Below, in pieces: positions 7,405 to 27,466 of a DNA stretch of 40,431 nucleotides. Source of the DNA: Acrocarpospora corrugata. GTDB lineage: Bacteria; Actinomycetota; Actinomycetes; Streptosporangiales; Streptosporangiaceae. The stretch's first letter is position 1. Every line of letters begins with the position of its first letter. The stretch is from NCBI RefSeq assembly GCF_009687845.1, contig NZ_BLAD01000042.1:1-40431 (forward strand), given 5' to 3'. The notes under the pieces are model-generated. The model made no database searches. It was not told the DNA's origin and saw only the letters and a list, made by a program, of their open reading frames with translations. The translations under genes and the position numbers were made by a program.

Positions 7405-8028
7405 ATGAGCTTGCCCGCCTACCGGCTCGACGGCTTCTTCTTCGAGCTCTGCGACTGCTACACGATCTGTCCGTGCTGGATCGGCGGGGCGCCTGACGAC
7501 GGCCGATGCACAGGGGCGTTCTGCTGGTCGGTCGAGAACGGCACAATCGGCGACGTCGACGTGTCGGGCCGGTCTGTGGTCAGCGTCTCGTTCCACACCG
7601 GGCACCGCGACGACGGCGGGCAGGAGGTCACGCTCTTCGTCGGCGACGGCGCCGACGAGGCGCAGTTCGGCGCGCTCGTGACCACGTTCACCGGTGGCTA
7701 CGGCGGGCCGCTCGGCGAGCTCGGGCGGCTGATGGGCGTGCTGCGCGAGGCGCGCCTCGCGCCGATCAGTCTGACCACCCAGGACGATCACCTGTCGGTC
7801 ACCGTCGGGCGGATGGTCAGCGGCGCCGGGTCGGTCCTGCGCGGCGGCGACGGCGCGGTCACCGAGCTCCGCAGCGGGCGGCTGAGCGAGGTGCTCGGCC
7901 CGCGCGCGGAAGTGGGCAACACCTCGGCCTTCCGCATCGATCTGGGCGGGCAGTCCGCCTCGGTGCAGGTGAGCGGGCGGGCGGCGATGCGCGGCCCGTT
8001 CCGGTACGAGAGCGAGGGCGAACCGTGA
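7405..8028 (+). CDS. DUF1326 family protein with N-terminal cysteine cluster
   Basis: A 207-residue soluble protein. The hallmark is the cysteine cluster CDCYTICPC (Cys16, 18, 22, 24), with two more at Cys35 and Cys40 (GRCTGAFCW), which looks like a metal site; the family function is not established. The remainder is beta-rich. Start ATG 7405 has the ribosome site GGGGAG at 5-base spacing; a longer frame from 7348 has no such site. Its stop overlaps the start of the DUF2182 gene (GTGA), a pairing I recall seeing often. As first gene of an operon containing a copper-radical oxidase, a role in binding or passing copper is a reasonable guess. Confidence 0.88.
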   Translation: MSLPAYRLDGFFFELCDCYTICPCWIGGAPDDGRCTGAFCWSVENGTIGDVDVSGRSVVSVSFHTGHRDDGGQEVTLFVGDGADEAQFGALVTTFTGGYGGPLGELGRLMGVLREARLAPISLTTQDDHLSVTVGRMVSGAGSVLRGGDGAVTELRSGRLSEVLGPRAEVGNTSAFRIDLGGQSASVQVSGRAAMRGPFRYESEGEP

Positions 8029-8798
8029 CCGGCCCGGTGACGAATTCGCGCACCGCGGTCACCATGGTCACCACGGTCGCGATCATCACGCTCGCGGTAG
8101 CCGGGACGGCCGGTCTGCTGGCGTGGCAGCTCTCTCCCGCGCGGTCGCTGCTCGCCCACGACCTCGCCGCAGGCTGGACCGGGGTCGGCTGGTTCACCGC
8201 CAGCTGGCTGCTGATGACGGTCGCGACGATGTCGCCCACCTCGCTGCCCCTGCTCCGGGCGTTCACCCGGATGCTCGGCGACCGGCGCGACGCCGGCCGG
8301 CTGGTCGCCACCGTGGTCGCCGCCTACCTGGCCACCTGGACGGCCGCCGGGCTGGCGCTCGCCGCGCTCGACGCACTCGTGCACGCGCTCGTCCACGGCA
8401 CCTCCTTCGCGTGGGCCGTGCTGCCCCTCTCCCTGCTGCTCGCCGGCGGCTACCAGCTCTCCGGTACGGCCGCGCGGTGCCTGACCGCGTGCCGTACACC
8501 GTTCGGGATTCTCGCCCGGCGCTGGTCAGGGCGGCGTCCGGGTGCGGAGGCGGCCCTGATCGGCCTGGACCATGGGCTGTTCTGCCTGGGCTGCTGTGCG
8601 GGGCTGATGGTGGTGATGTTCGCGGTGGGGATGGCGAACCCGGTGTTGATGATCGCGCTTGGCGGCGTGGCGGCGCTGCACAAGCACGCGCCGTGGGGTG
8701 CCTTGCTGGCCCGGGTCACGGGCGTCGTGCTGATCGTCGCGGCGGTCGCGGCCGGCGCGGCGCACCTCGTCGGCGGCGTGGGACTGGGAGGTCACTGA
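8025..8798 (+). CDS. DUF2182 predicted metal-binding integral membrane protein
   Basis: A 257-residue membrane protein starting at GTG 8025 inside the preceding stop (GTGA overlap). Hydrophobic segments lie at about 13-34, 55-80, 94-125, 127-147, 186-215 and 228-250. Family motifs are visible: LLMTVATMSPTSLPLL (about 62-77), Cys152 and Cys156 before the cytosolic loop, and HGLFCLGCCAGLMVVMF (183-199), with three cysteines plus methionines at a membrane face. Such Cys/Met/His-rich membrane motifs suit soft-metal binding. DUF2182 has no proven function. Coupled between DUF1326 and a copper enzyme, it may import copper or hand it over; this is inference. It overlaps the next gene by one base (TGATG). 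Confidence 0.88.
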   Translation: MTGPVTNSRTAVTMVTTVAIITLAVAGTAGLLAWQLSPARSLLAHDLAAGWTGVGWFTASWLLMTVATMSPTSLPLLRAFTRMLGDRRDAGRLVATVVAAYLATWTAAGLALAALDALVHALVHGTSFAWAVLPLSLLLAGGYQLSGTAARCLTACRTPFGILARRWSGRRPGAEAALIGLDHGLFCLGCCAGLMVVMFAVGMANPVLMIALGGVAALHKHAPWGALLARVTGVVLIVAAVAAGAAHLVGGVGLGGH

Positions 8799-11098
8799 TG
8801 CCGAAGGACACCGACGGCCACTGGCTGCCGCCGCTGCCGGTGCCGCACCAGTCGGGCCAACTGCGCGACAAGCGTGGGCAGAACCCGGTTCTCGACGAGC
8901 GCGGCCTCTTCATCATCCACGCGGTGCTCATGCATACCGGAAAGGTGCTCTGGTTCTGCGGGCACGCGGAGACCCTCGACTACCCGCTCGAAGCGTACGT
9001 GTTCGATCCCCACCTTCCGGCCGGACCGGCGGTCCGCAAGCCGTTCCCCAACGGCGCGGATCTGTTCTGCTGCTTCTGCGTGCAGCTCCGCGACGGCAAG
9101 ATCCTGGTCGTCGGCGGCTCGCAACTCGACCACGTCGAACCCGGGACGACGTACGACCCGCGCACCGACTACCGGGGTAGCAGCGGATCTTCCACGATCC
9201 TCATCTTCGACCCGAGCAAGGGGAAGATGGGAGGAGAGTGGGAGAAGCCGGGGCGCAAGCTGCTCCAGGGCCGTTGGTATCCGACGGCGGTGGTGCTCGG
9301 CGACGGCAGCGTGATCGTCGTCTCGGGCCGGCGCGAGCTGGCGGACTTCAGGAATCCGCCGAACGGGTGGCCGACGTCCAAGCTGGTCGAGTGGGTCACC
9401 AACCGCGGCATCGCCCAGGTCGTCGAACATCTCAAGCCGCCGGACTACCTGCCGCAGCCGGTGACCGGCGCCAACCGCATGATTCCCATCTACCCGGGCA
9501 TTCACCTCGCCCCCGACGACCGGCTCTACACCACCCACACCAACTGGGGCCAGGAGATCGACGAGCCGCCGACTCTCTCGCTGACCATCCGGCCGACGGG
9601 CGCCGCCGTCACCGGGACCTGGACCGAGTACGTGCGCCCGACCGCCAGGGCCAGGCAGCCCCAGCGGGAGGAGGGCATGAGCGTGATGTTGCCGGTGGTG
9701 CTCGATCCGGCGACCAAGAAGCGCGACCCGAACTCGGTCGGCAAGTTCCTCGTGGTGGGTGGCGGATTCGCGGTCGACTCCACCGGCGTGTCGCTGGTGC
9801 GCCGTCCGGTCGCCACCCCGGCGCCGCCGTGGACGATCACTACGCCACAGGGGCTCGGGACGCTGGCCTACCACGAGCAGAAGATCGCCGTCCGGGAACC
9901 GGTCGAGATTCTCGACACCAGCCTCGCCGGGGCGCCGCGGTGGACTGCCGTGCCCGGGCTGCGCCGTCCGCCGCGGATCAACGGTCACTGCGTGCTGCTG
10001 CCGGACGCCACCGTGCTCATTCTCGGCGGCCACGACGCGTACAAATGGAATGCCAAGGTGAACAGCCCGGACGCCAACCTGAGACACGTGCCTCTCACCA
10101 CCCCGACGCTGGAGGTGGAGATCTACACGCCCGGCGGAGGGTTCCACCTCGGGGCGCCGATGCGCCACCCGCGGATGTACCACTCCATCGCGATGCTGCT
10201 CGCCGACGGCTCCGTGATCGTCGCGGGTGGCGCCGATCCCAACGAGCACGAACCTTCGCTCGTCTATCCGCGCACCTTCAACGGGCGCACCTACTTGGGC
10301 ACGTCGCGCCTGCTGGCCGCGGCACCCGCCGGTGCCACCGTTCTCGGCCTCGACATCAGCCCGTCGGTCTATGCTCGGGCTTTCCCCACGATGCCGCCCC
10401 AGACGGCAGTGGTCATCGATCCCGGCCCCAGCGAGATCAGGGCCGCCCTGGTCTCGCAGCACATGGCACCGCCACCGGCGCCGGTCAGTTCGGAGTTCTT
10501 CTTCCTCCGAATCGCCACCCCGCTTCCCCGCGCCATTCCCAACGGGACCCGCGTCGACTTCGAGCCGGCGCCCATCGGCCTCCCGGTCCCCCGGGTCAAC
10601 GAGTGGGTGTCGGCCACGGGGGTGAGCGAGCCCTTCGCCTTCTCGACGCCGCTCAACCGCAAGGACTACGAGATCTACCTGCCGCCGTACTTCTACAAGT
10701 CCGGCACCCGGCCGGTGCTCCCGCCGCTGAAACCCGGCGCTGTCCAGGTCAAGTACGGGGAGACGTTCACGGTCCTGACGCCCGACGCGGCCCGGATCAC
10801 CCGGGTGGCGATCATGCGTCCGGCCGCGGTGACCCATCACACCGACACCGAGCAGCGTTTCATCGAGCTGCCGTTCACCGCCAACGGCGCCACCTCCCTG
10901 TCGGTCACGATGGTGCCCACCACCGACAGCTCACTGGTGACACCCGGCTACTACATGTTGTGGATCCTCGCCGGGGCGCTGCCCTGCTTGGAGGCCCGCT
11001 TCATCCAGATCATCGGCTGGCCCGCATTGCGCTCACCGTCGGTGCCGGTCGAAGTGACACCGCCGGCCCCGCTGGCCCCGGGAGGCATCCATGGCTGA
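8798..11098 (+). CDS. Copper-radical oxidase (galactose/glyoxal oxidase-like; Kelch propeller plus DUF1929)
   Basis: 766 residues. A Kelch-type beta-propeller (about 30-480) is followed by a DUF1929 early-set immunoglobulin-like domain at the C-terminus. Cofactor residues line up with galactose and glyoxal oxidases: Cys91 in ADLFC and Tyr161 in GRWYPT for the Tyr-Cys crosslink, Tyr461-His462 in RMYHSIAMLLADGSV as copper ligands, and His680 in VTHHTDTEQR as the third ligand. The enzyme should oxidise an alcohol or aldehyde with oxygen, releasing hydrogen peroxide. An extra stretch at about 500-600 sits between propeller and DUF1929. Oddities: there is no signal peptide or anchor, although known relatives act outside the cell, and the crosslink cysteine lies in a cluster (Cys91, 92, 94). 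The start is coupled to DUF2182 by TGATG; a longer upstream frame is only shadow coding. Confidence 0.87.
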   Translation: MPKDTDGHWLPPLPVPHQSGQLRDKRGQNPVLDERGLFIIHAVLMHTGKVLWFCGHAETLDYPLEAYVFDPHLPAGPAVRKPFPNGADLFCCFCVQLRDGKILVVGGSQLDHVEPGTTYDPRTDYRGSSGSSTILIFDPSKGKMGGEWEKPGRKLLQGRWYPTAVVLGDGSVIVVSGRRELADFRNPPNGWPTSKLVEWVTNRGIAQVVEHLKPPDYLPQPVTGANRMIPIYPGIHLAPDDRLYTTHTNWGQEIDEPPTLSLTIRPTGAAVTGTWTEYVRPTARARQPQREEGMSVMLPVVLDPATKKRDPNSVGKFLVVGGGFAVDSTGVSLVRRPVATPAPPWTITTPQGLGTLAYHEQKIAVREPVEILDTSLAGAPRWTAVPGLRRPPRINGHCVLLPDATVLILGGHDAYKWNAKVNSPDANLRHVPLTTPTLEVEIYTPGGGFHLGAPMRHPRMYHSIAMLLADGSVIVAGGADPNEHEPSLVYPRTFNGRTYLGTSRLLAAAPAGATVLGLDISPSVYARAFPTMPPQTAVVIDPGPSEIRAALVSQHMAPPPAPVSSEFFFLRIATPLPRAIPNGTRVDFEPAPIGLPVPRVNEWVSATGVSEPFAFSTPLNRKDYEIYLPPYFYKSGTRPVLPPLKPGAVQVKYGETFTVLTPDAARITRVAIMRPAAVTHHTDTEQRFIELPFTANGATSLSVTMVPTTDSSLVTPGYYMLWILAGALPCLEARFIQIIGWPALRSPSVPVEVTPPAPLAPGGIHG

Positions 11099-14000
11099 GC
11101 CCGGCACGCTGGAACGCCTGGCGCTGATGCTCGGCTCGGCCCTCGGCGGCCTCGGCGACGAGTTCGCCGAGGACCCGCTTGCTGTGCTCACCGATCTCGG
11201 CCTGTGGATCCCGCCCGGCCTGGTGTCGCCGGCGTTGCGCAGCGCCATCGGATCCTGCGCGGCGTCCGCGCAGGAGCTTCCCGGCCTGGTCGTCGAACTG
11301 GCCGAGGCCATCGAGGCCGACGCGGGCGCTGTGGAGCTGGCCGCGAAGGCGGGACCGCTGGTCGTCGAACTGGCCGGGGTGATCGGCGCCTTCGACCCGA
11401 TCGCCCACGAGGTCGGCGCCCTCGACCTCGACGTGCCCGCCGGCGCCCTGCAGCAGTTCGTCGGCGAGCTGCCCAGACGGCTGCTGGATCGGGTCGTCTC
11501 CCGCCACCTGATCGACAACCAGCGGATCCTCTCCGGTGTGCTGACCGGGCTCGGCGTGCTGGGCACGACGGTGGTCAACGCCGGGTCCACCGATCCGGCG
11601 CTGCCGGAGACGACAGTGCGATTCGTCGATTTCGCCAGGATCGGCGAGTTCTTCTCCTCACCCGAGACGGCCTTCGGCTCGCTGTTCGGCTGGGGCACGC
11701 CGCAGTTCGACGGCCCTGCGCTCATCGATCTGCTCTACGAGCTGCTCACCTTCCTCGGCCTGCCGGTGGCCTGGGGCGTCGACCCCGGCCCGCCCGAGCG
11801 TCCTTTCATTGAGTTCTTCCTGGCGGCCCTGATCCCCACCGGCCCCTCGGTCACGCCCCCCGGCCTCGACATGATCGCCAAAACGGGCCTGGCCGACGGG
11901 ATCGATCTGGTGGTGCCCGTCGGCGGCGGCTTCGCGATCGGCCTCAGCGCCGCCGGGGGAGTCGAAGCCTCGACCGGCATCCGGATCCAGCCGCCGGCCG
12001 ACGTCTCGGTGATCCCGCCGCAGGGCACGGTACAGGGGACGCTCGCGGCCGGACTCGACAAGGTGCCGGGGCCCGACCGGGACAAGGTGGTCCTGCTGGG
12101 CGTGGCCGGTGGTACGGAGCTCAGCGCGAAGCGGATCAGGATCCGCCTGACCACCTCCTTCGCGTGGGACGTCGCCGCCGGACGGGCCGCGGGCGATTTC
12201 GGCCTTGAGGGGGCCGTGGAGGGTGGCCGGCTGGTCATCTCGCTCGCGGGCGCCGACGGGTTCGTCTCCGGCGTCATGTCGGGCTTCGCCCTGGCGGCCG
12301 ACTTCGACCTCGGCTTCGGCTGGCGGGCCGGCTCGGGGGTGTTCTTCACCGGCAGCGGCGGGCTCGACGTACAGATCCCGACGCACGTCCAGCTCGGTCC
12401 GATCGAGATCGACAGCCTCACGGTCCGGGCCGGCATCGAACCCGCCGGGTTCCCGATCGGGCTGATGGCCACGATCAAGGCCGCCCTCGGACCGCTCCGG
12501 GCCGTCGTGGAGAACATCGGGGCCGAGGCCCTCCTCGGCCTGCCAGCAGACGGCGACGGCAACCTGGGCCCGTTCGACCTCGAATTCCGGTTCAAGCCGC
12601 CCACCGGCGTCGGCCTCTCGCTCGACGTCGGCGTCGTCAAGGGCGGCGGCTACCTGTCCGTCGACGCCGCGCGGGGCGAGTACGCGGGCGCCCTGGAGTT
12701 CGTCATCGCCGACTTCCTGGCGGTGTCGGCGGTCGGCCTGATCACCACCCGCAACCCGGACGGTTCCCCCGGGTTCTCCCTGCTGATCGTCATCACCGCC
12801 GAGTTCCCCGGCGGTGTCCAGCTCGGCTTCGGCTTCGTCCTGCTCGGCGTCGGCGGTCTCCTCGGCATCGACAGGACGATGAACCTGCGGGCGCTGATGG
12901 AGGGCGTCCGTACGGGCGCGGTGGAGCGGGTGATGTTCCCCCGCGACGTCGTGGCCAACGCGCCGCGCATCCTCAGCGACCTGCGCGCCTTCTTCCCGGC
13001 CAAGCGCGACACGTTCCTGGTCGGACCGATGGTCAAGATCGGCTGGGGCACTCCGGCGTTGATCACGGCCTCCGTCGGGGTGATCATCGAGATCCCGGGC
13101 AACATCGCCATTGTCGGCGTGCTGAAGGTCACCCTGCCCACTCCCGACGAGCCGCTGATCCGGCTTCAGGTCAACTTCGCCGGCGCGATCGAGTTCGACC
13201 GCAAGCGGCTGTACTTCTTCGCCTCGCTGTTCGACTCCCGGATCCTGTTCCTGACCATCACGGGGGAGATGGGCCTGCTGGTGGCCTGGGGCGATGAGCC
13301 CGACTTCGTGGTCAGCGTCGGCGGCTTCCACCCCTCCTTCGAGCCGCCCCCGTTGCCGTTCCCGGTCCCGCGGCGGATCATGGTCAGCATCCTGGACGAG
13401 GACTGGGGCCGGATCCGGATCACCAACTACTTCGCCGTCACCAGCAACACGGCGCAGTTCGGCGCGGCAGCGGAGCTGTACTTCAAGTTCAGCGCGATCA
13501 GCATCCAGGGGCACATCGGCTTCGACGCGCTGTTCCGGTTCTCGCCGTTCTACTTCATCGTCGAGATCTCCGCGTCGGTGTCGCTGAAGGTCTTCGGCGT
13601 CGGCGTGTTCGGCATCCACCTGCAGTTCGAGCTGGAAGGGACCTCGCCGTGGCGGGCCCGCGGCCAGGGCTCCATCTCGTTCTTCTTCTTCGACGTGTCC
13701 GCCGACTTCGACGAGACCTGGGGCGAGGCGAAGCACACCGAGCTGGATCCGGTGAACGTGCTGCCGCTGCTCAAGGCCGAGCTGGAGAAACCCGAGTCGT
13801 GGCGGGCGCTCTCACCGGGCACCCACCTGTTCGTGTCACTGCGCGACCTGCCCGACTCGGGGCCGGGGGCCCTGGTGCTGCACCCGGCAGGCGCCCTTGA
13901 GGTACGGCAACGCGCCGTGCCACTGGACATCGGCATCGCCAAGGTCGGCGGCAACCGGGCGGGCGACGCGACCCGCTTCACTCTCTCGGTCCAGGGCACC

Positions 14001-14510
14001 GCGTTGCGCAGGAGCGCCGACGTCACCGAACCGTTCGCCATGGCCCAGTTCCTGGAGCTGGACGACGCGGAGAGACTCTCCCGTCCGTCGTTCGAGCGCC
14101 AGCACGCGGGGATCGAGCTGGTACCGACCGGTGCGGGCGCCCAGTCCGCGCGGATGGTCCAGCGGGCCGTGCGTTTCGAGGAGGTCGTCATCGACGACCA
14201 GTTCCGCCGCAGGCAGCGCCGCTTCCGGCCCATCGCCGGCGGGCTGTTCGGCCATCTCGTCGCGGGCGCGAGCATCACCGCCGCACCGGTCTCCGCCGCC
14301 GCCGCCCGGCAGCTCGACCCGCACCAGGACGGCGTCGCGATCGCCGGCGCCGGATTCGTGGTCGCCTCCACGGTCGACAACCGCCCCACGACACTGGTTT
14401 TCGGCAGCGAGTCGGCCGCGCGGGAGTGGCTGAACGGCCGGATCGCCGACAACCCCAACCAGGCCGGCATGATCCACGTCATTCCCGCGTACGAGGCGGC
14501 CATCATATGA
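11091..14510 (+). CDS. Giant beta-rich protein, DUF6603-like
   Basis: 1139 residues; its function is unknown. Residues 1-180 are mostly helical and hydrophobic without a signal peptide. The centre (about 270-900) is a long run of alternating polar/hydrophobic beta strands rich in Gly and Phe, for example SGFALAADFDLGFGWRAGSG, GPMVKIGWGTPALITASVGV and FFASLFDSRILFLTITGEMG. I recall this as the DUF6603 pattern, but could not check. The last 230 residues are a mixed domain with a second start-like helix-strand pattern. The strand pattern suggests a long sheet, groove or solenoid. It overlaps the oxidase gene by 8 bases and the next gene by 4 (ATGA), so production is coupled to both. Confidence 0.8.
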   Translation: MAEPGTLERLALMLGSALGGLGDEFAEDPLAVLTDLGLWIPPGLVSPALRSAIGSCAASAQELPGLVVELAEAIEADAGAVELAAKAGPLVVELAGVIGAFDPIAHEVGALDLDVPAGALQQFVGELPRRLLDRVVSRHLIDNQRILSGVLTGLGVLGTTVVNAGSTDPALPETTVRFVDFARIGEFFSSPETAFGSLFGWGTPQFDGPALIDLLYELLTFLGLPVAWGVDPGPPERPFIEFFLAALIPTGPSVTPPGLDMIAKTGLADGIDLVVPVGGGFAIGLSAAGGVEASTGIRIQPPADVSVIPPQGTVQGTLAAGLDKVPGPDRDKVVLLGVAGGTELSAKRIRIRLTTSFAWDVAAGRAAGDFGLEGAVEGGRLVISLAGADGFVSGVMSGFALAADFDLGFGWRAGSGVFFTGSGGLDVQIPTHVQLGPIEIDSLTVRAGIEPAGFPIGLMATIKAALGPLRAVVENIGAEALLGLPADGDGNLGPFDLEFRFKPPTGVGLSLDVGVVKGGGYLSVDAARGEYAGALEFVIADFLAVSAVGLITTRNPDGSPGFSLLIVITAEFPGGVQLGFGFVLLGVGGLLGIDRTMNLRALMEGVRTGAVERVMFPRDVVANAPRILSDLRAFFPAKRDTFLVGPMVKIGWGTPALITASVGVIIEIPGNIAIVGVLKVTLPTPDEPLIRLQVNFAGAIEFDRKRLYFFASLFDSRILFLTITGEMGLLVAWGDEPDFVVSVGGFHPSFEPPPLPFPVPRRIMVSILDEDWGRIRITNYFAVTSNTAQFGAAAELYFKFSAISIQGHIGFDALFRFSPFYFIVEISASVSLKVFGVGVFGIHLQFELEGTSPWRARGQGSISFFFFDVSADFDETWGEAKHTELDPVNVLPLLKAELEKPESWRALSPGTHLFVSLRDLPDSGPGALVLHPAGALEVRQRAVPLDIGIAKVGGNRAGDATRFTLSVQGTALRRSADVTEPFAMAQFLELDDAERLSRPSFERQHAGIELVPTGAGAQSARMVQRAVRFEEVVIDDQFRRRQRRFRPIAGGLFGHLVAGASITAAPVSAAAARQLDPHQDGVAIAGAGFVVASTVDNRPTTLVFGSESAAREWLNGRIADNPNQAGMIHVIPAYEAAII

Positions 14511-17500
14511 CCGATATCGGCACCTACTCGTTCCTGCCGTGGCTGCGGCGGGGAGTCGCCAATCTGATGTCCGCCGCGCCCGGCGGCACGACCCGGGCGC
14601 GCATCGGCGTCGACCTGAAGCTCACCGGCCAGGCGGTGGGCGGCGGCACGAGGTCCGCGCCGATCCACCGCGACGTCGAGCTGTACGGCCCCGGCGACGT
14701 GGCCGGCCTGGACGCCCGCTCGATCGTCCGCACCGAGCCGCGCGCCGGAATCACCAACTTTGAGCCGAACTACCTGCCGTTCGTCGAGTTCTACGACGAG
14801 GACCTGCCGTGGCGCTACACCCCGGCGCCGCCGGACGGGTCCAAGCGCCTGGCGCCCTGGCTGGCCCTGGTCGTGCTGGCCGGCGGCGAGTTCGTCGACG
14901 GCGCCGCGGGCGGGAAGCCCACGCCGTTCGTGCTCGTCGAGGATCCCGGCGTGTTCCCCGCCGCCGGCGAGCTGTGGGCATGGGCGCACGTGCACGTCAA
15001 CGGGGGCCTGGGCACGGCCGGCACCGTGGTGTCCGACAACATGGCCCAGGTGCTGCCGCGGTTCGACGCGGTCGTCGGGGCCAATCCGGACCACGGGCTG
15101 TCCCGGCTGCTCTGCCCGCGGCGTCTCAGCCCCGACACCGCCTACCATGCCTTCGTCATGCCCGTCTTCGAGAGCGGCCGGCTGGCCGGGCTCGGTCTCG
15201 ACCCGGGTGCGACGCCGTCGGCCACGCATTCGGCCTGGGGCGGCTACCCCGGCCGGGACGAGCCGGCGCACTACTGCTACTACCATCGCTGGAGTTTCCG
15301 TACCGGCGTGGTCGGCGACTTCGAGTATCTGGTCCGCCTGCTCAAGCCCCGCCGGATGGACCCGCGCGTCGGCCGGCGCGACATGGACGCCCGCGCGCCG
15401 CTGCCGGGTCTGCCCGGCATCGATGTTCCCGGGCTCGGCGGCGTGCTGCGCCTCGGCGGGGCGTTGCGGATCCCCGAGATCAACCTCGACCAGGCGGCGC
15501 GGGAGGAGGCCGAGCGGTACGAGCACTGGGACGTCCCGTTCCCGCACCCCTTCCAGACGGCCCTGGCCGACTTCATCGAACTGAGCGACGACTACGCGAG
15601 CGGCGACGCGGCGGACCCCGACCCGGTGGTCACCCCACCCCTGTACGGCCGCTGGCACGCCCGGACCAGCCGCCTGCTGGAGGCGACGGAGCCGCAGCTG
15701 CACGCCAACTGGGTGCACGAGCTCAACCTCGACCCCCGCTTCCGGGCCGCCGCCGGGTTCGGCACGACGATCGTGCAGGAGAACCAGGAGACGTACCTGG
15801 CCGCCGCCTGGCAGCAGGTCGGCGCGGTGCTGGAGGCCAACAGGCGGATCCGCCTCGGGCAGCTCACCCGGGAGGTGGCGGGCAGCCTGCACCGCCGCCA
15901 TCTCGTCGCGCAGGCGGCCGCCGACTCCGGCCGGGTGCTGGCGATCACCGCTCCGGTGCATCCCCGCATCGTCCACAGCGGGGTCACGGTGGCCCGCGGC
16001 CTCCTGGTGAGCCGGGTCGCCAGGGGCCCGCTGACCTCGGCGATGCGCCGGATCAGCCGCCCGGGTTCGACCGTGGTGCGGGCGCTGACCCGCCAGGGCG
16101 ACCCGCCCCGCCGCCTGCTGGCCGCCATCGCCGACGAGCGGGCCACCGCGGCCCGGCCGAAGGCGGCGCCGCCGGGCGTGCCCACCTCCGAGACGCTCGT
16201 GCAGCGCCTCGACCAGCACCGCGACCAGGTCTCCGTCCAGCTCGCCCGCGATGACCGCAAGCCCGAACTGGTCGCCCTGCTGCCGCGCTCCGACCAGTTC
16301 ACGCTCTGGGAACCCGGCAAGGAGTCCCCCCGTCTGGAGCAGACGCCGCACGACAGCCCGACCGGCGTCCGAATCAAGGACGGCGTCGAGGGCAACGCCG
16401 AAGTGATCCGCGCCTCGACGGAGGCCGGTGCAGAGCCGGTACGGCCCGGCGTCGACGTGGACGGCCTAGCCGAGGCCGCGCTGGACCTTCTCGACCCCGA
16501 GGTGACCGTGCCCCGCCGGGTGCTGTCCGGGGTGGACATCCCGCCCAGGCTCCAACCCGCCGCGTTCCGCGAGGTCATGGCTTACCCGGAGATCGACCTG
16601 CCGATGTACAGGCCGCTCGCGGAGAAGTCGTCGGAGCTGTTTCTGCCCAACCTCACCCTCATCCCGCCCGACAGCATCACCATGCTGGAGACCGACCAGC
16701 GCTTCATCGAGGCGTACCTGGTCGGTCTCAACCATGAGATGGCCCGCGAGCTGCTCTGGCGCGAGTACCCCACCGACCAGCGGGGCAGCTACTTCCGGCA
16801 GTTCTGGGACCCCGCGCACCAGCTCCCGGTCCCCGGCGAGACCGACGCCCAGCGCCGGGAGCGGGTGCGTGACATCCCGCCGCTCCACCAGTGGACGCTC
16901 GCCTCGCCGCTGGGCGCCCACGACCAGCACGACCAGGGCGAGGACCCCGGGGAGGACGAGGTGGTCCTGGTGATCAGGGGTGAGCTGCTCAAGCGCTACC
17001 CCACGGCGGTGATCTACGCCCAGCGGGCGAAGTGGCGGCGCACCGAGGAGGGCACCATCGATCCCAGCGCCGAACGGGAGCTCGACGACCTCACCCCGGC
17101 CGAGCAGCAGAATCCGCCGCCGGGCAAGCTGCGCATGCCGCTGTTCGGCGCCAAGGTCGACCCGGACATCGCCTTTCTCGGCTTCGACCTCACCGTCGAA
17201 GAGGCCCTCGGCCAGGACCCCTCGGTGCCCGACGCCGACCCCGGCTGGTTCTTCGTGCTGCGCGAGCGGCCGGGGGAACCCCGCTTCGGCCTCGACATCG
17301 CCCGTACGGGCAACCTCAACGTCTGGAACGACCTCGCTTGGGACGACATCGCGCCGGGGTCGCCGTTCATCCCGGTCGGCCCGGCCGCGCCGGTCCATCA
17401 CCTGACCGAGCCGACCGGTGCTGACACGGAGAAACACGACCAGTGGGCCGAGGACCGCTTCCTGCACTGGGGCGCGGACCTCAACTCCTCCGAGGTGGCC

Positions 17501-17566: not shown

Positions 17567-20500
17567 CGTCCGCTCGGCGCACCGGCGCGTGCGCGAACAC
17601 GCCGCGGAGGCCGCCGGCCTGCGCGCCGACATCGCCGCGGCCGACGCCCGGCTGACCCGCCTGCGGCGCGCCCGCGACGCCGCCGCCCGGCGGGCAGACC
17701 CGAGGCTGATCCGGCCGCCGCGCCCGCTGGCCGATCTCGGCGACGATCTCGCCGCCGCCGAGCTCGCGCTGGCCCAGCTGCGGGAGAAGCTCCGGCAGGC
17801 GGAGCGCCGGCTGGCCGAGGAGCTCCGTGGCCTGGCCGGACTGTCCGATCCCCGCGACGACATCGCCCACCTTGACGGCGGGACGCCGCTGCTGCTGATG
17901 CCGCTGCGGATCGAGACCCGCTTCATCGGCGCCGAACTGTGGGTGCGGATCTATCCGGACCAGTGGGCGGTCGACGGGTTCGAAGAGCGGCTCAGCGACA
18001 CCGAAGTGGTCAACGCCACCCGGTTCTGGGCCTCGTACTTCCGGGCCGGGGGCGACGAGGGCATGCGTCGCGCCGCGTGGCGGACCCTGGTGACCTCGGG
18101 CGGCAGCGGCCGCGCGGGCTGGATCGTGGGCCGGTTCGCCCCGCTGAACCTGTCAGAAGAGCCGGTACGGACCTCGCCCGACGAGGTGATCCTGGTCGTC
18201 GCCGGCGACCTGACCCTGACCTCGCAGGAGCGCGGCGCCGCCAGGGCGTACTGGGAGAAGGTGTGGCGCGCGAACGGCGACCCCGACGGCGTCTTCGCGG
18301 CCGAACTGCGCGGGGAGGTGGGCGACGCCCGGGCCAAGGTCCTGCTCGGCGCGCCGCCGCACGCGTTCGACGAGCGGCCCGGGGACGTGGACCCGGAGCA
18401 GGTGAACGTCACGATCGGCTTCTGCGAGCTGCCGTCGCTCACCGACGACGACACCAAGCCGTCCGCCTGGACGCAGGCGGCGCGGGCCGGCCTGCTGCCG
18501 GACCAGATCATGCTGATCGGCCGCGAGTCCGGGCGCACGGTTCTGGAGTTCGCCGGCAAGCCGATCCCGCCGACGCTGGCGGTCGGCCCCGATCCGGCGG
18601 CCGGGCCAGGCGACCAGTTCCGGATCGAGAACGGCGAGCTGGTGGTGCCCGACGACCTGCGCTGGATGGTCGACTTCGACGCGGCGGTCGAGGTGGGCAT
18701 GGCGATGCGGGTGCCGTTGGGGCCGGGCCTGGACAGAGGGTTCGACCGGCTCTTCGCGGTCGGTATCCGGGCGGGCGCGACCCCCGGCGAAGACCAGGCG
18801 GACCTGGAGGAACTGCTCACGCATCATCATCGCGCCCGATCCGGGATGTCGATCCTGGCGCAGGGCACGCCGACCAACAACACCGAGGGAGTGCCGTCCG
18901 GGTTCAGCCGGCTCGACGACCCCGAGCTCAGCTTTCACCGCTACCTCGGGACCGGGTCGCCGCTGGTGGATGAGCCCCGCTGGGCGGTCAAACAGGACGG
19001 CCAGTGGCTGGCCGAGTGCCTCGGCGTCGCCCCGGAGGTGTTCGGCGCGGTCGCCGGGGCCACCGACGCCGACCAGGCCGAGGCGTTCGCGATGAACACC
19101 GCGCTGTGGCCGGCCACCTGGGGCTACTTCCTTGAGTCGATGATGCATCCCCTGCTCGGCGACGACGAAGTGCAGCGCACCAGGAACTTCTTCCTCGGCT
19201 ACGTCAGCGGCCGGGGGCGGGTGCCGGCGCTGCGCCTGGGACGCCAGCCGTACGGCATCGTGCCCGCCACCGCGTACGCGCGGCTGAAGTTCGGCACCGG
19301 CGGCCCCGGTGACCCGGCGGACCCGGGTGACCTGCCGATGCTGAACGTGCTCGGGGAGCTGCTCGCCGTGGTCACCGCCGACCTGGCCAAGCTCACCGAC
19401 GCGGTGCCGCACGCGTACGCCGCCTCCGGCGATCCGCACCAGACGCTACTGGACATCGTGGCGCTGCACCCGGCCTCGGTCGAGTTCCATCAGCGTTACG
19501 CCGAGTCGATCAATGACCTGTTCAACCGGTTCCGCTTCGACAACCTCGGCCAGGACTTTTTCAACACCTGGACCGCGCTCGGCCACCTCGTCACCGGCCG
19601 CCGGTTGCTGGCCAGTCTGGGGTACCGCGGCAACGCCACCCCGGACGTTCTCGGCAAGCTCCTCCACACCGCGCAACACCGGCTGAAGGGGCCGATCGTC
19701 GACGACCGCCCGTTGTCGGAGGAGGCGGCGGTCCGCCCCTACTGCGACGACGGGCGTAACTACCTGCAGTGGCTGGCCGACGCGGCCCGGTCGTCGCTGG
19801 AGGAGGTGCGTCAGGAGATCGGCTTCACCGGCGACCGCGAACCGAACGCCCTGCTCTACATTCTGCTCCGGCACGCCGTACTGCTGTCCTGGTGGGACGC
19901 GGCGGTCCGGCTCCGGCTGGAATTCGGGCTGATCACCCCAGCCGAGCTGCTGGCGGCCCGGCGGGAACCGCCGTTCGTGCACGTGGCCGCCGGCCAGACC
20001 ACGGAGAGCCGCTGGAACGCCCTGTACGGCGCCGCGCCGGCCATCACCGGCGACCCCTTCCGCGCCCTGCACGAGATCATCCCCGAGCTGCTCGACAAAC
20101 CGGCCGCCGACCACCTCCGCGAGCTCGTCGCCGCGATCAAGGCGCTGGCGGGCCTGCCGACCGCACGGCTGGAACGGCTCCTGGCCGAGCACCTCGACTG
20201 CGCCAGCCACCGGGTGGACGCCTGGCGGCTCGGCCTGGTGACCCGCCGCCTGCTCGACATGCGCGGCCTGGCCCCCGGTGACGGCCTCGGCGGCGCGAGC
20301 CCGCAGCCGCGGCGCGGCATCCACGTCGGCGCCTACGGGTGGCTGCACGACGTACGCCCGGAATCCCGGGAGCTCGAACCGGTGGAGCTGCCCGACGAGC
20401 TCAAGCCCGCGTTCGAGAACGGGCCCGCGCCGGTGCGGGACAGCGCCAACGGCGGCTTCGTCCACGCGCCGTCGCTGAACCACGCCGCGACGGCGGCGAT

Positions 20501-22994
20501 CCTGCGCAGCGGCTTCCTGGGCAACGCCACCCCCGACCACCCTGACACGATGGCGCTCAATCTCAGCTCAGGGCGCATGCGGCTGGCCACGTCGGTGCTC
20601 CAGGGCCTGCGCGAGGGGCAGCCGCTGGGCGCCCTGCTCGGCTACCGGTTCGAACGCGGACTGCACGACCGGCACGGGCTGGCGGAGGTGGACGCGTTCA
20701 TTCACCCGCTGCGGCTGGCGTTCCCGCTGGCCGGAGACAGGGACGGCCGGATGTGCGTCGACGGCCTGGAGCTGATCCGGCACGTACGCGAGGCGGGCGC
20801 GCCGTCCTACCCGTTCGGGCGCACCGACCTTCCGGCCGCCTCGGCGGCGCAGCGGCAGGCCATCGACCTGGAGGTGGAACGCCTGCTGGACGTGCACGAC
20901 GCGATCGGCGACCTGATACTGGCCGAGAGCGTGCACCAGGCGGTGCTCGGCAACGCCGACCGGACGGCGTCCTCGCTCGACTCCGTCGGGCGTGGCGGGT
21001 TCCCGCCCGAGCCCGCGATTCTGGAGACCCCCGGGCGGACTCACACGCTGACCCACCGGGTGGCGGTCCATCTGCGGGCCGGGCTGGACCATCGCGCCTC
21101 CCCGGTGAGCGGGATCGCGATGACGCCAAGGGCGATGGCGGAGCCGGGGGTCAACGAGCTGGCAGCGGCGATGCTGCCGCCGCCCGCCGACGTGGTGGTC
21201 CGGGTCCGCTGGAACGACCAGAATATGCTCGTCAGCCAGGCGGACCTGGGTCTCCAGCCGATTGACCTGCTCTACCTGGTCCGGCTGGAGTCACAGGCCG
21301 CGCTCGGCGAGCTGGACGAGCGGATCCTCCGGCACGTGGCCGTCACGGCGGGGCTTCGGCCCGACGCGGCGCCGGTCGTGCACCTCACCGAGCGGGTGCC
21401 GGGGAAGACGACGTTCTTCGAGATCGCGCCGCTGGTCGGTCAGCTGCGCGCGATGGCGACCACCAGCCGACCCCTGCGGGCCACCGACATGCTCCGCGCC
21501 GGTGAGGCGCGGGCCACCGCGGACGCGCTCGTGCACGCCGACCGGGACCGCGTCGCGGCCGTGGCCACCGAGCTGGACGGTCATCTCAGCGAGCTGGCGA
21601 CCCTCCGTACCAGGCTCGACGCGGTGGAGGGCCCGGAGGCTCTCGACCTCCTGGTCGGCCAGGCCGGTGCGGTACTGGTCGAATCCGGCAGATTCGGCCT
21701 GCCGAGCGGAGGGGCGGGCCGGCTGGCCGCGACCAGAGCCGTCCTCTTCGGCGATCTCCTGCAAGCCGTGGCGGCCCTGACCGGACGCTGGCGGGCCCGG
21801 CTGGACCGCGCCGACGCCGCGCTCGCCTATGACAGCGCGCTGCCGTCCACGGCCACCGACCCCGAGCGCGTCGCCGTGCTGCTCCGGGCCGACCGCGAGC
21901 TCCACGCCACGCCGACCAGGCCGGTGCCGACCGACGCCGAGGCGTTCCGCGCGGCGATCGAGACGGCGCGGTCGTCCTTCGCCGCCAGGCTCGCCGGATT
22001 CGAGGCGGTGGCAGAAGCGGCGACCGGTGTCGCCGACGCGCTGAGCCGGGTTGCCGTGCTGCTGCCGGTGGACGCCTTCGACGCCGAGCCGTTTCCTGTC
22101 GGCGGATTCACGGAACGGGCGATCGCGCTCTGCGGGGACGCGTCGCAGGCGCTCGGCTTCATGATCGCGGAGGTGCAGGCCAGGAGTGACGCCGCGGCCG
22201 GCCACCTCGCCGCGCATGACTCCGCCACGGCCGGCCGGCCGAAGGCCGAGGCGCTGACGGCGGCGGTGACCGCGCTGCTCGGCCCGGACGCGGTGTTCGT
22301 GCCGGAGTTCGACCTCCCCGAGGAACTGGCCGGTGAATGGGAGGCGGCGCTGCAGTGGAGCCGCTCGGGCGGGCTGCTGGCCGGGCTGGCGTCCCGGCCC
22401 TTCCCGGTCGACGACTGGCTGCACGGCGCCGCCCGCGTGCGCGGCCCCATGCGTGCCTGGGAGGAGACGACCCTGCTGGCGGGCGCGTTCGGCCGGCCCG
22501 AGCCGGAGCTGACGCCGGTTCAGTTCCCGCACGCCGCCGAACCCTGGCTGGCGCTCGAATGGCCCCCCGGCACCGACGTGGCCGGCGATCGCCTGCTCTA
22601 CACCGCCCACTACCCGGCCGCGTTCGACCGGAAGGCGCCGCAAGCCGGGCTGCTGCTGGACGAATGGGTCGAGGTCGTGCCCGACGACATGGCGACCACC
22701 GGCATCGTGTTCCATCACGACAGCCCGGACTCCGAGCCGCCGCAGGCGATGCTGCTCGTCGTGCCGCCCGACGCGAGCTCGGGCTGGCGCTGGGACGACC
22801 TCGTCGACGCCCTGGACGACACCTTCGACCTGGCGCGCCAGCGGGCCCTGGAACCGGAGGCCATCGCCCAGACCGCGTACGCCTCCTTCCTGCCGGCCAC
22901 CCTCACCGAGGCGACGGTACGCGGCCTGGGCATCTCCGCCAACCTCGCCGTCAACAACGGCCTGTACGGGATCATGCGAGCCGACCATGCCTAA
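17559..22994 (+). CDS. Conserved-looking giant protein of unknown function (1811 aa)
   Basis: The largest gene of the window. Start ATG 17559 gives an 8-base overlap with the previous gene; the frame is open further upstream, but only across that gene. Residues 1-95 are a charged helical region with strong coiled-coil character (DARLTRLRRARDAAARRAD, AQLREKLRQAERRLAEELR). Directly after comes a compact block LLLMPLRIETRF and LWVRIYPDQWAVD (111-139), then long alternating alpha/beta sequence with many Arg/Asp salt-bridge patterns and the block RLGRQPYGIVPA (about 560-572). A second helical, Ala-rich region spans about 1320-1560. No signal peptide, transmembrane segment or known catalytic motif is seen. 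Size, coiled coil and coupling to three other giants suggest a scaffold or filament-like component. Function unknown. Confidence 0.85.
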   Translation: MSDVRSAHRRVREHAAEAAGLRADIAAADARLTRLRRARDAAARRADPRLIRPPRPLADLGDDLAAAELALAQLREKLRQAERRLAEELRGLAGLSDPRDDIAHLDGGTPLLLMPLRIETRFIGAELWVRIYPDQWAVDGFEERLSDTEVVNATRFWASYFRAGGDEGMRRAAWRTLVTSGGSGRAGWIVGRFAPLNLSEEPVRTSPDEVILVVAGDLTLTSQERGAARAYWEKVWRANGDPDGVFAAELRGEVGDARAKVLLGAPPHAFDERPGDVDPEQVNVTIGFCELPSLTDDDTKPSAWTQAARAGLLPDQIMLIGRESGRTVLEFAGKPIPPTLAVGPDPAAGPGDQFRIENGELVVPDDLRWMVDFDAAVEVGMAMRVPLGPGLDRGFDRLFAVGIRAGATPGEDQADLEELLTHHHRARSGMSILAQGTPTNNTEGVPSGFSRLDDPELSFHRYLGTGSPLVDEPRWAVKQDGQWLAECLGVAPEVFGAVAGATDADQAEAFAMNTALWPATWGYFLESMMHPLLGDDEVQRTRNFFLGYVSGRGRVPALRLGRQPYGIVPATAYARLKFGTGGPGDPADPGDLPMLNVLGELLAVVTADLAKLTDAVPHAYAASGDPHQTLLDIVALHPASVEFHQRYAESINDLFNRFRFDNLGQDFFNTWTALGHLVTGRRLLASLGYRGNATPDVLGKLLHTAQHRLKGPIVDDRPLSEEAAVRPYCDDGRNYLQWLADAARSSLEEVRQEIGFTGDREPNALLYILLRHAVLLSWWDAAVRLRLEFGLITPAELLAARREPPFVHVAAGQTTESRWNALYGAAPAITGDPFRALHEIIPELLDKPAADHLRELVAAIKALAGLPTARLERLLAEHLDCASHRVDAWRLGLVTRRLLDMRGLAPGDGLGGASPQPRRGIHVGAYGWLHDVRPESRELEPVELPDELKPAFENGPAPVRDSANGGFVHAPSLNHAATAAILRSGFLGNATPDHPDTMALNLSSGRMRLATSVLQGLREGQPLGALLGYRFERGLHDRHGLAEVDAFIHPLRLAFPLAGDRDGRMCVDGLELIRHVREAGAPSYPFGRTDLPAASAAQRQAIDLEVERLLDVHDAIGDLILAESVHQAVLGNADRTASSLDSVGRGGFPPEPAILETPGRTHTLTHRVAVHLRAGLDHRASPVSGIAMTPRAMAEPGVNELAAAMLPPPADVVVRVRWNDQNMLVSQADLGLQPIDLLYLVRLESQAALGELDERILRHVAVTAGLRPDAAPVVHLTERVPGKTTFFEIAPLVGQLRAMATTSRPLRATDMLRAGEARATADALVHADRDRVAAVATELDGHLSELATLRTRLDAVEGPEALDLLVGQAGAVLVESGRFGLPSGGAGRLAATRAVLFGDLLQAVAALTGRWRARLDRADAALAYDSALPSTATDPERVAVLLRADRELHATPTRPVPTDAEAFRAAIETARSSFAARLAGFEAVAEAATGVADALSRVAVLLPVDAFDAEPFPVGGFTERAIALCGDASQALGFMIAEVQARSDAAAGHLAAHDSATAGRPKAEALTAAVTALLGPDAVFVPEFDLPEELAGEWEAALQWSRSGGLLAGLASRPFPVDDWLHGAARVRGPMRAWEETTLLAGAFGRPEPELTPVQFPHAAEPWLALEWPPGTDVAGDRLLYTAHYPAAFDRKAPQAGLLLDEWVEVVPDDMATTGIVFHHDSPDSEPPQAMLLVVPPDASSGWRWDDLVDALDDTFDLARQRALEPEAIAQTAYASFLPATLTEATVRGLGISANLAVNNGLYGIMRADHA

Positions 22995-24798
22995 TCCGCT
23001 GTTGATCCATAACCTCCGTGCCGAGCTCTCCGAGCGTGGCCGGCCCTCGGTGACGATGTGGAACCGGGTCGAGGGCCGGCCACGGTCGCCCGACTTCGAC
23101 CGGGCGCTCCGCGCCGAGATCCGCGACGGGCTGTGGATGCTGACCCGCCAGTGGCAGATGGGCGAGTTCCACGGCGACGACGCCGGATCGCCCGTCCTGG
23201 CCAAGGTGCAGGTGGCGCAGGCCCCGCTGGCCACGTTTCAGGCCCGCGACGCGATCCCGGCCGCCTACGACGGAAGCCGGCCGCTGGAGGCGGTGGCCGA
23301 GCGCCGGGCGCTGGACCACCTCACCGCCGGCGCCCTCGACCTGCGGATGATGCTCGGGCGCCGTTTCCTCAAGCTGATCCCGCCGGTCTACCGGCACTTC
23401 TTCATCGAGCGCTACTCCTTCGACGCGCCCGACCCCGGCGACGAGAACGACACCGAACGCGTCGCCCACCTGGAGGTGTACGCGCTGCTCCAGTCGCTGG
23501 CCGGCCGGGCGATGGACGGCTACCGCCTCTACCGGCACCTGACCGCCAGCCCCTCGAACACCCCGATCACGGGCATCCCGGTGGCGGACATCGACAAGCC
23601 GGCCATCATCGAGGCCGGTTCTGCGCTGGTCGCCTGGTTCGAGGCGATGATCGAGCGCCCGGACTGGCAGGCGGCCTGGGACCCGGCTCATCTGGAGCAC
23701 CGGTTCGCCGTCACCGCGAACGTCGCGGACGGCGCTAAACGCCTGGTCGCCGAGGAGTACCCGGGCGGGCGGCTGGACTGGACCGCGTTCTCCGTCGACC
23801 CGGCGGGCGGGCGCGGATCCGGTCCTCTCGCCGAAGCGTCGACCACGATTCCGACGGCGACCCGCTTCAACGGGATGCCCGACAGGCGCTGGTGGGCGTT
23901 CGAGGACGGGCGCACCAACCTCGGTGACGTCGGCGTGGACACCACCGACCTGGCCCGGCTGCTGTTCCTGGAGTTCGCGCTCGCCTACGGCAACGACTGG
24001 TTCACCATCCCGTACGAGCTGCCGGTCGGCACCCTGGCCACGGTGGCCGGGCTCGCCGTGACCAACGTCTTCGGCGAGCGGCTGTGGATCGAGCCGGCCG
24101 GGCGGGGCGTCGACGACGACTGGCGGCGCTGGTCGATGTTCACCCTGGACGTCGCGGGAACCGGCGCCGAGCCCGCCGACACGTCGTTGTTCCTGCCGCC
24201 GGCGCTGCCGCAGTCGAACGGCGGGCCGCCGCTGGAGGACGTCGTCTTCATGCGCGACGAGGTGGCCAACCTCGTCTGGGCGGTCGAGCGGGTGGTGCCG
24301 CTCGCCTCAGGGACGGGCAAGCGGGGGTCGGAGGCCGCCGAGGAGACCCTGGCCCACCGGCGGAGGCTCGCGGGCCTGCCGCCGGACGGCCCGGTCACCG
24401 GCGACGCCGCGGCGCCGATCTCCTACCGGGCCATGACCACGGTGCCGGAGAACTGGATCCCGTTCGTCGTCATGCACGTGCCGGGCGACGTACGGGAGAC
24501 GCAGCTCCAGCGGGGGGCGATGGTGCGGGTGATGGAGGGCGTGCCGCCCGGCGACCGGATCCGGCCGCGTACCACACTGCTGCGGGTCGGGCTCGACCAG
24601 ACGCCGGCGGCGCCGTACCACGTCTTCGAGGAGGAGGTGCCGCGGGCCGGTACTCAGGTTTCGCTGGCCTACCAGCGCGCCCGGTGGCGGGACGGCCGGG
24701 TGCTGCTCTGGCTCGCCGCGACCCGCGTGAGCGGTTCCGGCGAGGCGTCCAGCGGGCTGGCCTTCGACCACCTCCTGCCCACCCCTCCCGCCTCCTAG
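22987..24798 (+). CDS. Conserved-looking protein of unknown function (603 aa), last intact gene of the coupled operon
   Basis: Start ATG 22987 overlaps the previous stop by 8 bases (ATGCCTAA). The N-terminus carries a striking block, MWNRVEGRPRSPDFDRALR then DGLWMLTRQWQMGEFHGDDAG (48-67), rich in Trp and Arg and typical of a conserved core; I cannot attach a family name. It continues as alpha/beta sequence with blocks RRFLKLIPPVYRHFFIERYS and YGNDWFTIPYELPVGTLATV. Toward the C-terminus are NWIPFVVMHVPGD and LAYQRARWRDGRVLLWLAAT. No secretion signal or membrane segment. It closes the run of overlapping genes, and the next gene, a truncated lipoprotein, is 40 bases downstream. Confidence 0.85.
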   Translation: MPNPLLIHNLRAELSERGRPSVTMWNRVEGRPRSPDFDRALRAEIRDGLWMLTRQWQMGEFHGDDAGSPVLAKVQVAQAPLATFQARDAIPAAYDGSRPLEAVAERRALDHLTAGALDLRMMLGRRFLKLIPPVYRHFFIERYSFDAPDPGDENDTERVAHLEVYALLQSLAGRAMDGYRLYRHLTASPSNTPITGIPVADIDKPAIIEAGSALVAWFEAMIERPDWQAAWDPAHLEHRFAVTANVADGAKRLVAEEYPGGRLDWTAFSVDPAGGRGSGPLAEASTTIPTATRFNGMPDRRWWAFEDGRTNLGDVGVDTTDLARLLFLEFALAYGNDWFTIPYELPVGTLATVAGLAVTNVFGERLWIEPAGRGVDDDWRRWSMFTLDVAGTGAEPADTSLFLPPALPQSNGGPPLEDVVFMRDEVANLVWAVERVVPLASGTGKRGSEAAEETLAHRRRLAGLPPDGPVTGDAAAPISYRAMTTVPENWIPFVVMHVPGDVRETQLQRGAMVRVMEGVPPGDRIRPRTTLLRVGLDQTPAAPYHVFEEEVPRAGTQVSLAYQRARWRDGRVLLWLAATRVSGSGEASSGLAFDHLLPTPPAS

Positions 24799-27170: not shown

Positions 27171-27466
27171 ATCTCAGGCCGGCGGTCATTGGCAAGGTGC
27201 CGCCTCCGCCGCCGGCGAGGCGCTCAGGCAACTCTGGGCCAAGTTCCCGCCCCGTTCGATACCTGAGGCATGGCCGGCCACCTGCGCCAGTACGGAGCAG
27301 ATCGTGGAGCGCCTGGACCGCCCTCCGTTGCGAAGCGCCAACAAGCACACACACTATTCGCGGCGGACTGGGGCGCTCAGGTTGTTGGCGTGGTTGGAGA
27401 CGATGCCCGGGACTACCTGGCGGCGACGGTGGCTGGCTTCCGGTGCCCAGGAGTCGGGCCCGGTGA
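27130..27466 (+). pseudogene. Second tyrosine recombinase, N-terminal fragment
   Basis: In a different frame just after the preceding recombinase, the translation reads EALRQLWAKFPPRSIPEAW, RSANKHTHYSRRTGALRLLA and WLETMPGTTWRRRWLASGAQ. This matches, from memory, the N-terminus of the second enzyme in actinobacterial tandem-recombinase sets. It breaks off at about 27466, where IS982 sequence on the other strand begins, and its catalytic domain is absent. It overlaps the end of the first recombinase, as tandem recombinase genes normally do. Confidence 0.55.

Follow-up and report, generated by a model that had tools for sequence, protein, structure and literature searches.

A conserved core of four giant proteins with a replaceable upstream gene, found in an operon of Acrocarpospora corrugata

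The operon and its seven genes

We analyzed a 40,431-nucleotide stretch of DNA from the soil actinomycete Acrocarpospora corrugata (contig NZ_BLAD01000042.1, positions 1 to 40,431; hereafter the window), which contains an operon of seven plus-strand genes, A to G. Gene A (7405..8028) encodes a DUF1326 cysteine-motif protein of 207 aa, a putative metal-handling partner of B. Gene B (8025..8798) encodes a PpoB2/DUF2182 membrane protein of 257 aa, which is a probable copper donor to the oxidase, and C (8798..11098) encodes that enzyme, a copper-radical oxidase of 766 aa similar to galactose oxidase and GlxA. The remaining genes code for giant proteins: D (11091..14510; 1139 aa) belongs to DUF6603, whereas E (14507..17566; 1019 aa), F (17559..22994; 1811 aa), and G (22987..24798; 603 aa) match no family above cut-off. 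E is conserved in a 47-row alignment (A2), F was aligned in 40 rows (A4), and G carries the signature RQWQ..EF. Comparison with other genomes showed that the unit is a four-gene core, D to G, preceded by a replaceable gene, and C occupies this variable slot in the window.

An earlier reading made from the sequence alone (the sequence-only reading) had described overlaps at every junction. The strings GTGA at 8025, TGATG at 8796, ATGGCTGA at 11091, ATGA at 14507, ATGTCTGA at 17559, and ATGCCTAA at 22987 lie exactly at the positions it gave, and its total of 4,572 residues for D to G is the exact sum of 1139, 1019, 1811, and 603 aa. There are no internal stops in A, B, D, E, F, or G, which have a GC content at third codon positions of 0.92-0.95; C is open from 8798 to 11098. 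The run of overlaps exceeds chance: no other series of at least three occurs in 200 kb of this contig. In those 200 kb, a crude gene caller that missed B gave 82 same-strand neighbour pairs, 13 of them with a candidate overlap of 1-8 nt (operon counted). Consensus promoters and terminators around the operon were at most weakly above shuffles and were not used. The 9.27-Mb genome has one copy of G and one DUF6603 match.

All families named in the sequence-only reading were seen with Pfam. A matched PF07040 (E 2.3e-34), B matched PF09948, now named PpoB2, copper chaperone (159 bits, cut-off 28.7; E 1.6e-46), and D matched PF20248, DUF6603 (424.7 bits, cut-off 27; E 6.2e-127). C matched PF09118 (59.1 bits, cut-off 25; E 5.5e-16) and PF07250 (38.0 bits, cut-off 37.5; E 1.4e-9), and so has both the Kelch/glyoxal-oxidase N-domain and the E-set domain expected of AA5/GlxA-like oxidases. 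It also matched PDB entry 4unm (E 3.7e-24); its score against the GlxA equivalog NF052501 was 134.5 bits, under the cut-off of 800.

E, F, and G had nothing above cut-off in Pfam, NCBIfam, PADLOC, or PHROG; in Pfam, E and G had zero matches and F had two, both below cut-off. D to G gave no match at E<=0.1 in PADLOC 2.0.0 or in PHROG, including its tail, sheath, and baseplate families, and their Pfam listing held no TcA/TcB/TcC domains and no NTPase, STAND, caspase, or EAD domain. In the PDB, nothing convincing was found with the E and G profiles, and the matches of the D and F profiles (best E 7e-4 and 2e-4) were mostly designed helical bundles or coiled coils and were discarded as noise. The DNA of E had no match in E. 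coli. The sequence-only reading knew of no described system of this make-up, and none came up in the family libraries and literature that we searched. That literature, which excluded most subscription journals and preprints, contained no paper that names DUF6603, DUF2182, or DUF1326 and none on a variable-effector gene cluster of this kind.

A conserved core and a variable slot

We scanned 84,980 species, each represented by a single genome, and found relatives of G in 477 stretches, of which the best 80 were kept for locus work. By their record titles, these 80 come from actinobacteria, Chloroflexota, Cyanobacteria, Bacteroidota, Myxococcota, Alphaproteobacteria, Acidobacteriota, and Aminicenantes; Herbidospora yilanensis came closest in the scan, with a G that is 87% identical. 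The order D-E-F-G is fixed in Actinomycetota, Chloroflexota, Bacteroidota, Cyanobacteria, Myxococcota, Pseudomonadota, Gemmatimonadota, and haloarchaea. Across the 80 loci, E and F were separated by -23 to +30 nt in 69 of 72 measurable pairs and F and G by -14 to +30 nt in 75 of 79, both best-case spacings obtained by choosing the start codon nearest to a 4-nt overlap. Of the 80 genomes, 45 were searched for DUF6603, a set biased to best hits, and all 45 contain it.

An even draw of 296 genomes from the phylum of the window held D in nine, E in seven, and G in seven, the last sought with a single-sequence query. D was present in all seven E genomes (E being weak and partial in G261) and in six of the seven G genomes; the seventh (G269) is a 3.2-kb contig. 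In the two genomes where D was called without E (G204, G246), D is followed immediately by a weak E relative, which places them in a divergent DUF6603 branch where F and G were not recognised. Members of this branch score ~40-100 bits against the core profile. Ten such loci were seen (L154, L162, L180, L185, L188, L189, L191, L195, L197, and L199), nine of them with a weak E relative behind the DUF6603 gene, and their upstream genes differ; the one in L191, for instance, encodes a class-3 lipase. Of 201 genomes drawn from the phylum of Thermoflexus (G302), six matched DUF6603, five of them over the cut-off.

Plasmid records searched with tblastn contained G in 15 cases and E in 13, all of the latter among the 15. 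The two records without E are from Streptomyces anthocyanicus, where G stands alone, and from Natrinema caseinilyticum, where it is a 19% match. Twelve of the 15 records were fetched, and 11 had D, E, F, and G in order, with E or F split in some; hosts of the core plasmids include Streptomyces, Nocardia, Gemmatirosa, Rhizobium, Paraburkholderia, and haloarchaea. The lone G (L021:20001-21806) lies near IS5 transposases, with no match to D, E, or F in the fetched 42 kb, and is likely a remnant. F and G form one open frame of 2,101 aa in genome G193 (L013:13192-19494), which is consistent with joint working of the two proteins. An apparent homology between F and G (hhalign 97.4%) was rejected, as it fell to 9.5% and 0.7% once this fusion row was dropped.

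The sequence-only reading had treated the seven genes as one unit, to be judged by co-occurrence. Half of this stands: the giants occur together, in fixed order, well beyond this genome, and rarely apart from each other, the cases being the lone G on one plasmid and the divergent branch in which only an E relative is recognised. The other half does not, because the giants occur mostly apart from the oxidase. A, B, and C adjoin the core in only three of 65 loci, and other genes fill their place elsewhere.

These 65 loci, in which we examined the upstream side of D, are the window, 51 regions from 42 of the 45 genomes, some of which contain two or three D loci each, and a further 13, namely 11 plasmid loci, L013, and L017; the D loci L012, L016, and L195-L200 fall outside this count. 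A same-strand gene lies within 250 bp upstream of D in 54 of the 65, and re-reading added five (L155, L192, L146, L157, and L027), for a total of 59. Measured between the last sense codon and the start of the longest frame of D, 39 of the 54 first gaps are -8 to +22 nt. An enzyme that seemed fused to D in L155 was rejected, as the extension is read in the wrong frame (GC by codon position 0.95/0.65/0.51) and matches nothing in Pfam; the real slot gene of this locus is an S8 relative.

The slot proteins belong to unrelated classes: trypsin/NAL1-like, subtilase (S8), M64, PhoD-like phosphatase, phospholipase D (PLD), tyrosinase, M14 carboxypeptidase, WD40, and several that fit no class. For loci not scanned individually, these labels rest on phmmer clustering. 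By regular expression, HExxH was present in 12/12 M64 slots, two HxK(4)D in 2/2 PLD slots, G[DNS]SG in 10/11 trypsin-like slots, and G[TS]S in 8/8 S8 slots. Two of the three clustered haloarchaeal slot proteins were scanned and gave partial matches to BTH_I2691 (L023 and L030; 39.5 and 28.7 bits, under the cut-off of 150). Tke5, a member of the BTH_I2691 family of type VI secretion system (T6SS) effectors, is reported to be a pore-forming toxin (PMC12909789).

A quick maximum-likelihood tree built from 50 D proteins implies at least 16 changes of slot class, against a minimum of 12 for 13 classes. Among the 41 loci with named enzymes there were at least 10 changes for seven classes, which need six, so some classes were gained repeatedly; the long rows L017 and L032 are perhaps falsely joined, and all these counts could shift slightly. 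Slot classes are largely retained within clades of the tree, and the three oxidase loci form an eight-row clade with five trypsin-like loci (SH-aLRT 98). Given this variation in slot class among loci, the oxidase is one interchangeable module of a general system.

A C-terminal domain of ~125 residues is common to 11/11 trypsin-like and 5/8 S8 slot proteins (hhalign 99.4%), two unrelated folds. A 19-row model of it gave 20 matches in 15 of 46 genomes, all in slot or slot-tandem genes, and none outside the slot with up to 90 candidates scored per genome. Because 19 of the 20 are source rows of the model, and given that scoring depth, confinement of the domain to the slot is only moderately supported. 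In the open reading frames (ORFs) of the fetched loci it occurred 24 times; 22 of these are source sequences of the model, and the other two, which are new, lie in a Gemmatirosa slot. The 296-genome search found none, with 14 candidates scored per genome and no positive control. A docking domain common to all slots was rejected, since only the trypsin-like and some S8 proteins carry one. A second C-terminal domain, the CFI-box (cut-off 40), was found in the M14 slot protein with 56.3 bits and, at 38.8 bits just under the cut-off, in the oxidase of Microvirga massiliensis. Our model of this second domain had no match in the oxidase of the window, and no paper on the CFI-box was found in the literature searched.

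The copper trio and the predicted structures

Besides the window, two loci have A, B, and C next to the core, one in Herbidospora (L144) and one in the alphaproteobacterium Microvirga massiliensis (L145). Orthologues of A adjoin the oxidase gene in both relatives (89% identical in L144, 60% in L145), and in L145 B and C are 44-48% and 43-50% identical. The presence of the trio in Microvirga indicates that it was transferred as a unit. The motifs DLFC, RWYPT, MYHS, and THHTD of C are kept in all three orthologues; we take them to hold the Cys of the Cys-Tyr cofactor, the stacking Trp, and the Tyr-His and His copper ligands. Around the expected cross-linked Tyr, the alignment of C from the window with that of L145 is poor. 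AA5 class oxidases produce hydrogen peroxide (H2O2), and from its class and conserved motifs C should do so as well.

By domains and active-site motifs C is a member of the GlxA/AA5 oxidases. It differs from GlxA, which has its own anchor, in that no signal or anchor segment was seen, and its gene adjoins PpoB2 and DUF1326 genes inside an operon with D to G. In Marinomonas, a PpoB2 is reported to pass copper to a tyrosinase (PMC2855505), and B and probably A should likewise metallate C. As in the PpoB1-PpoB2 tyrosinase operon of that bacterium, a PpoB2 gene adjoins a copper oxidase gene here; unlike in that operon, the partner is a copper-radical oxidase, there is an additional DUF1326 gene, and both are joined to the giant core. 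A Cu/Zn superoxide dismutase gene (PF00080; 27684-28382) lies 2.9 kb after G, so a further enzyme of copper and peroxide chemistry is encoded near the operon, possibly by coincidence.

AlphaFold2 predicted for D a helical N-terminus followed by about 40 consecutive beta strands (predicted local distance difference test score, pLDDT, 80.1; predicted template modelling score, pTM, 0.49), which on our reading of the model form an antiparallel meander. Against the PDB, Foldseek placed large barrels of the outer membrane highest, among them FimD usher, SlpA, and LptD, while ApoB100 came 26th. The template modelling (TM) scores of the barrel matches, normalised to D, were at most 0.15, so the likeness is in strand pattern only. 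Against viral models there were five matches at E<=0.001, one of them a putative tail fibre, with TM <0.2. Twenty-eight strands of at least eight residues alternate in hydrophobicity far beyond shuffles (z 8.8); soluble sheets can also alternate in this way. From the model, D, as an amphipathic beta-rich giant, would be the best candidate for a membrane- or lipid-facing part. The predicted fold of G (pLDDT 79.2) had no PDB match at E<=0.001.

A hydropathy scan, in which some slot starts were over-extended ORFs, showed no obvious signal peptide in slot or core proteins. It marked a membrane-like segment in seven of the 54 slot proteins, and D has two such segments and B three. Beta-propellers are a repeated feature of the system: actinobacterial loci have a stand-alone kelch gene placed between D and E (3/3 scanned), and the C-terminal stretch of the long D proteins of L146, L155, and L192 resembles it. 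Core proteins also carry adhesive or surface-type insertions, annotated as VCBS repeats in E of Streptomyces longwoodensis (L022:10302-15422) and as BGTF or lamin-tail domains in F and G of Halalkalicoccus (L023:10615-22571).

A possible modular effector system and its alternatives

The recurrence of the same giants beside unrelated enzymes suggests an undescribed modular weapon or delivery machine. We tentatively favour, at a little short of an even chance, a modular effector system in which a complex of D to G carries, restrains, or delivers the slot protein. D, E, F, and G would be made together inside the cell, as the lack of a visible signal peptide suggests, and would assemble into one large complex, D facing membrane or lipid. 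The gene directly upstream of D would supply an exchangeable catalytic or toxic protein. In the window this cargo would be C, which would receive its copper through B (PpoB2-type) and A (DUF1326) and generate H2O2 and aldehydes. The target may be other cells, the own cell in conflict, or environmental polymers. Antagonism is favoured because the slots include proteases, phospholipases, and pore-former-like proteins, with defence or self-killing and scavenging as possible alternatives. A bolder version appears rather doubtful to us: the core as the chassis of an undescribed effector machine, common to bacteria and haloarchaea, with swappable warheads, some accepted through C-terminal address domains, in which D reaches or breaches membranes and the warhead here is a copper-radical generator of H2O2 that is self-contained and brings along genes for its metallation.

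Several results weigh against such a system. Six loci have no recognisable slot gene (L024, L025, L029, L154, L162, and L188, the last judged from the initial gene calls). Most trypsin-like assignments fall below the Pfam cut-off, some slot proteins are WD40 or unclassified, and the BTH_I2691 matches are partial and below cut-off. The shared C-terminal domain, found almost only in its own source rows, is absent from M64, PhoD, PLD, tyrosinase, oxidase, and 3/8 S8 slots. The barrel likeness of D has low TM scores. Downstream of the core there is no conserved immunity, export, or lysis gene in the 80 loci, where the commonest neighbour clusters occur in 8/80. The comparison shows a conserved core, a swapped slot close to D, slot enzymes with intact motifs, and a C-terminal domain on two folds; complex formation, cargo loading, and attack on other cells or the producing cell are all things that we infer, as the sequence-only reading did for a complex that houses or delivers an enzyme.

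Known effector systems work similarly, and none of those tested matches D to G. The T6SS, extracellular contractile injection systems, and toxin complex (Tc) toxins combine large proteins with exchangeable toxic enzymes, such as proteases and phospholipases. The haloarchaeal slots partly resemble a T6SS effector family; unlike all three machines, D to G contain no tail or injection family in PHROGs or Pfam, and among the structures predicted, those of D and G, the fold of G has no PDB counterpart at E<=0.001. The other comparison is with the NTP-dependent conflict systems of multicellular prokaryotes, which pair effectors with constant components (EAD, EACC1/2, and VMAP/iSTAND ternary systems; Kaur et al., 2020, 2021; PMC7159879, PMC8195603). 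They too combine invariant components with a replaceable effector, have small domains common to unrelated effectors, and use trypsin-like effectors. The present system differs in its four giants, three of them of unnamed families and none with an NTPase or caspase domain in Pfam, and in a slot that also holds copper-radical oxidase, tyrosinase, M64, M14, and PhoD proteins.

This likeness is the basis of the first alternative, an intracellular immune or programmed-death system in which the giants would detect an invasion and activate an enzyme that acts on the cell itself. We consider it unlikely. In its favour, no signal peptide was seen on slot or core proteins, and the repertoires overlap in trypsin-like effectors, with trypsin and S8 together in one of the systems (PMC7159879, PMC8195603). 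The 45 genomes reached, biased to best hits, are also large (median 9.2 Mb). However, the core has no NTPase, STAND, caspase, or EAD domain in Pfam and is negative in PADLOC, and tyrosinase and galactose oxidase go unmentioned in the main text of both papers.

A second alternative is a scavenging or surface-chemistry machine, the core of which displays or exports a hydrolase or oxidase that attacks environmental polymers. The slot classes are mostly typical of exo-enzymes, and many hosts are from genera of soil or water. In Streptomyces, GlxA and CslA are reported to produce a surface glucan (PMC11022532). Exported enzymes fit poorly with the absence of visible signal peptides and the few membrane-like segments in slot proteins, the core of the window has no substrate-binding, cell-wall, or S-layer domain in Pfam, and the haloarchaeal slots partly match a family of pore-forming toxins. 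We consider this reading quite improbable.

It is also hardly probable that the core is a horizontally moving cassette whose function is unrelated to the upstream enzyme, with enzymes accumulating by insertion. Such a cassette would account for the patchy distribution (7/296 genomes of the phylum), the plasmid copies, the transposase and integrase genes near the operon of the window, and the six loci without a slot gene. Random insertion would not be expected to put the slot gene so near D in most loci, to keep slot classes mostly constant inside clades, or to leave a C-terminal domain on two folds and nowhere else among the candidates scored. A phage origin was rejected, as a first viral scan found nothing, only one of 49 pattern-matching stretches in a second encoded a relative, and PHROGs were negative.

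If the modular effector system is real, many species would carry a multi-giant machine described nowhere in the literature searched. There would be a natural library of interchangeable enzymes, with at least one portable C-terminal domain that perhaps loads them, and a function for DUF6603 and three unnamed families of proteins of 600-1,800 residues. The system would account for copper-radical oxidases and tyrosinases that show no signal peptide, and could serve as a programmable protein-delivery chassis.

The one viral record with core genes is an unverified 'Bacteriophage sp.' sequence from human faeces (MT835531, 75% GC), one end of which encodes G, F, E, and a portion of D (L201:30088-40041). 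It is probably contaminating bacterial host DNA; packaging of core genes in particles is possible. In the window, the operon lies between genes of mobile elements, with transposase pieces (DDE_Tnp_1, DUF4158) to its left at 107-1063 and a phage-integrase-family gene to its right at 26336-27463. Also to the left, a minus-strand frame at 1501-2520 starts like a short-chain dehydrogenase and ends like beta-propeller families, and is either an odd fusion or a frame artefact.

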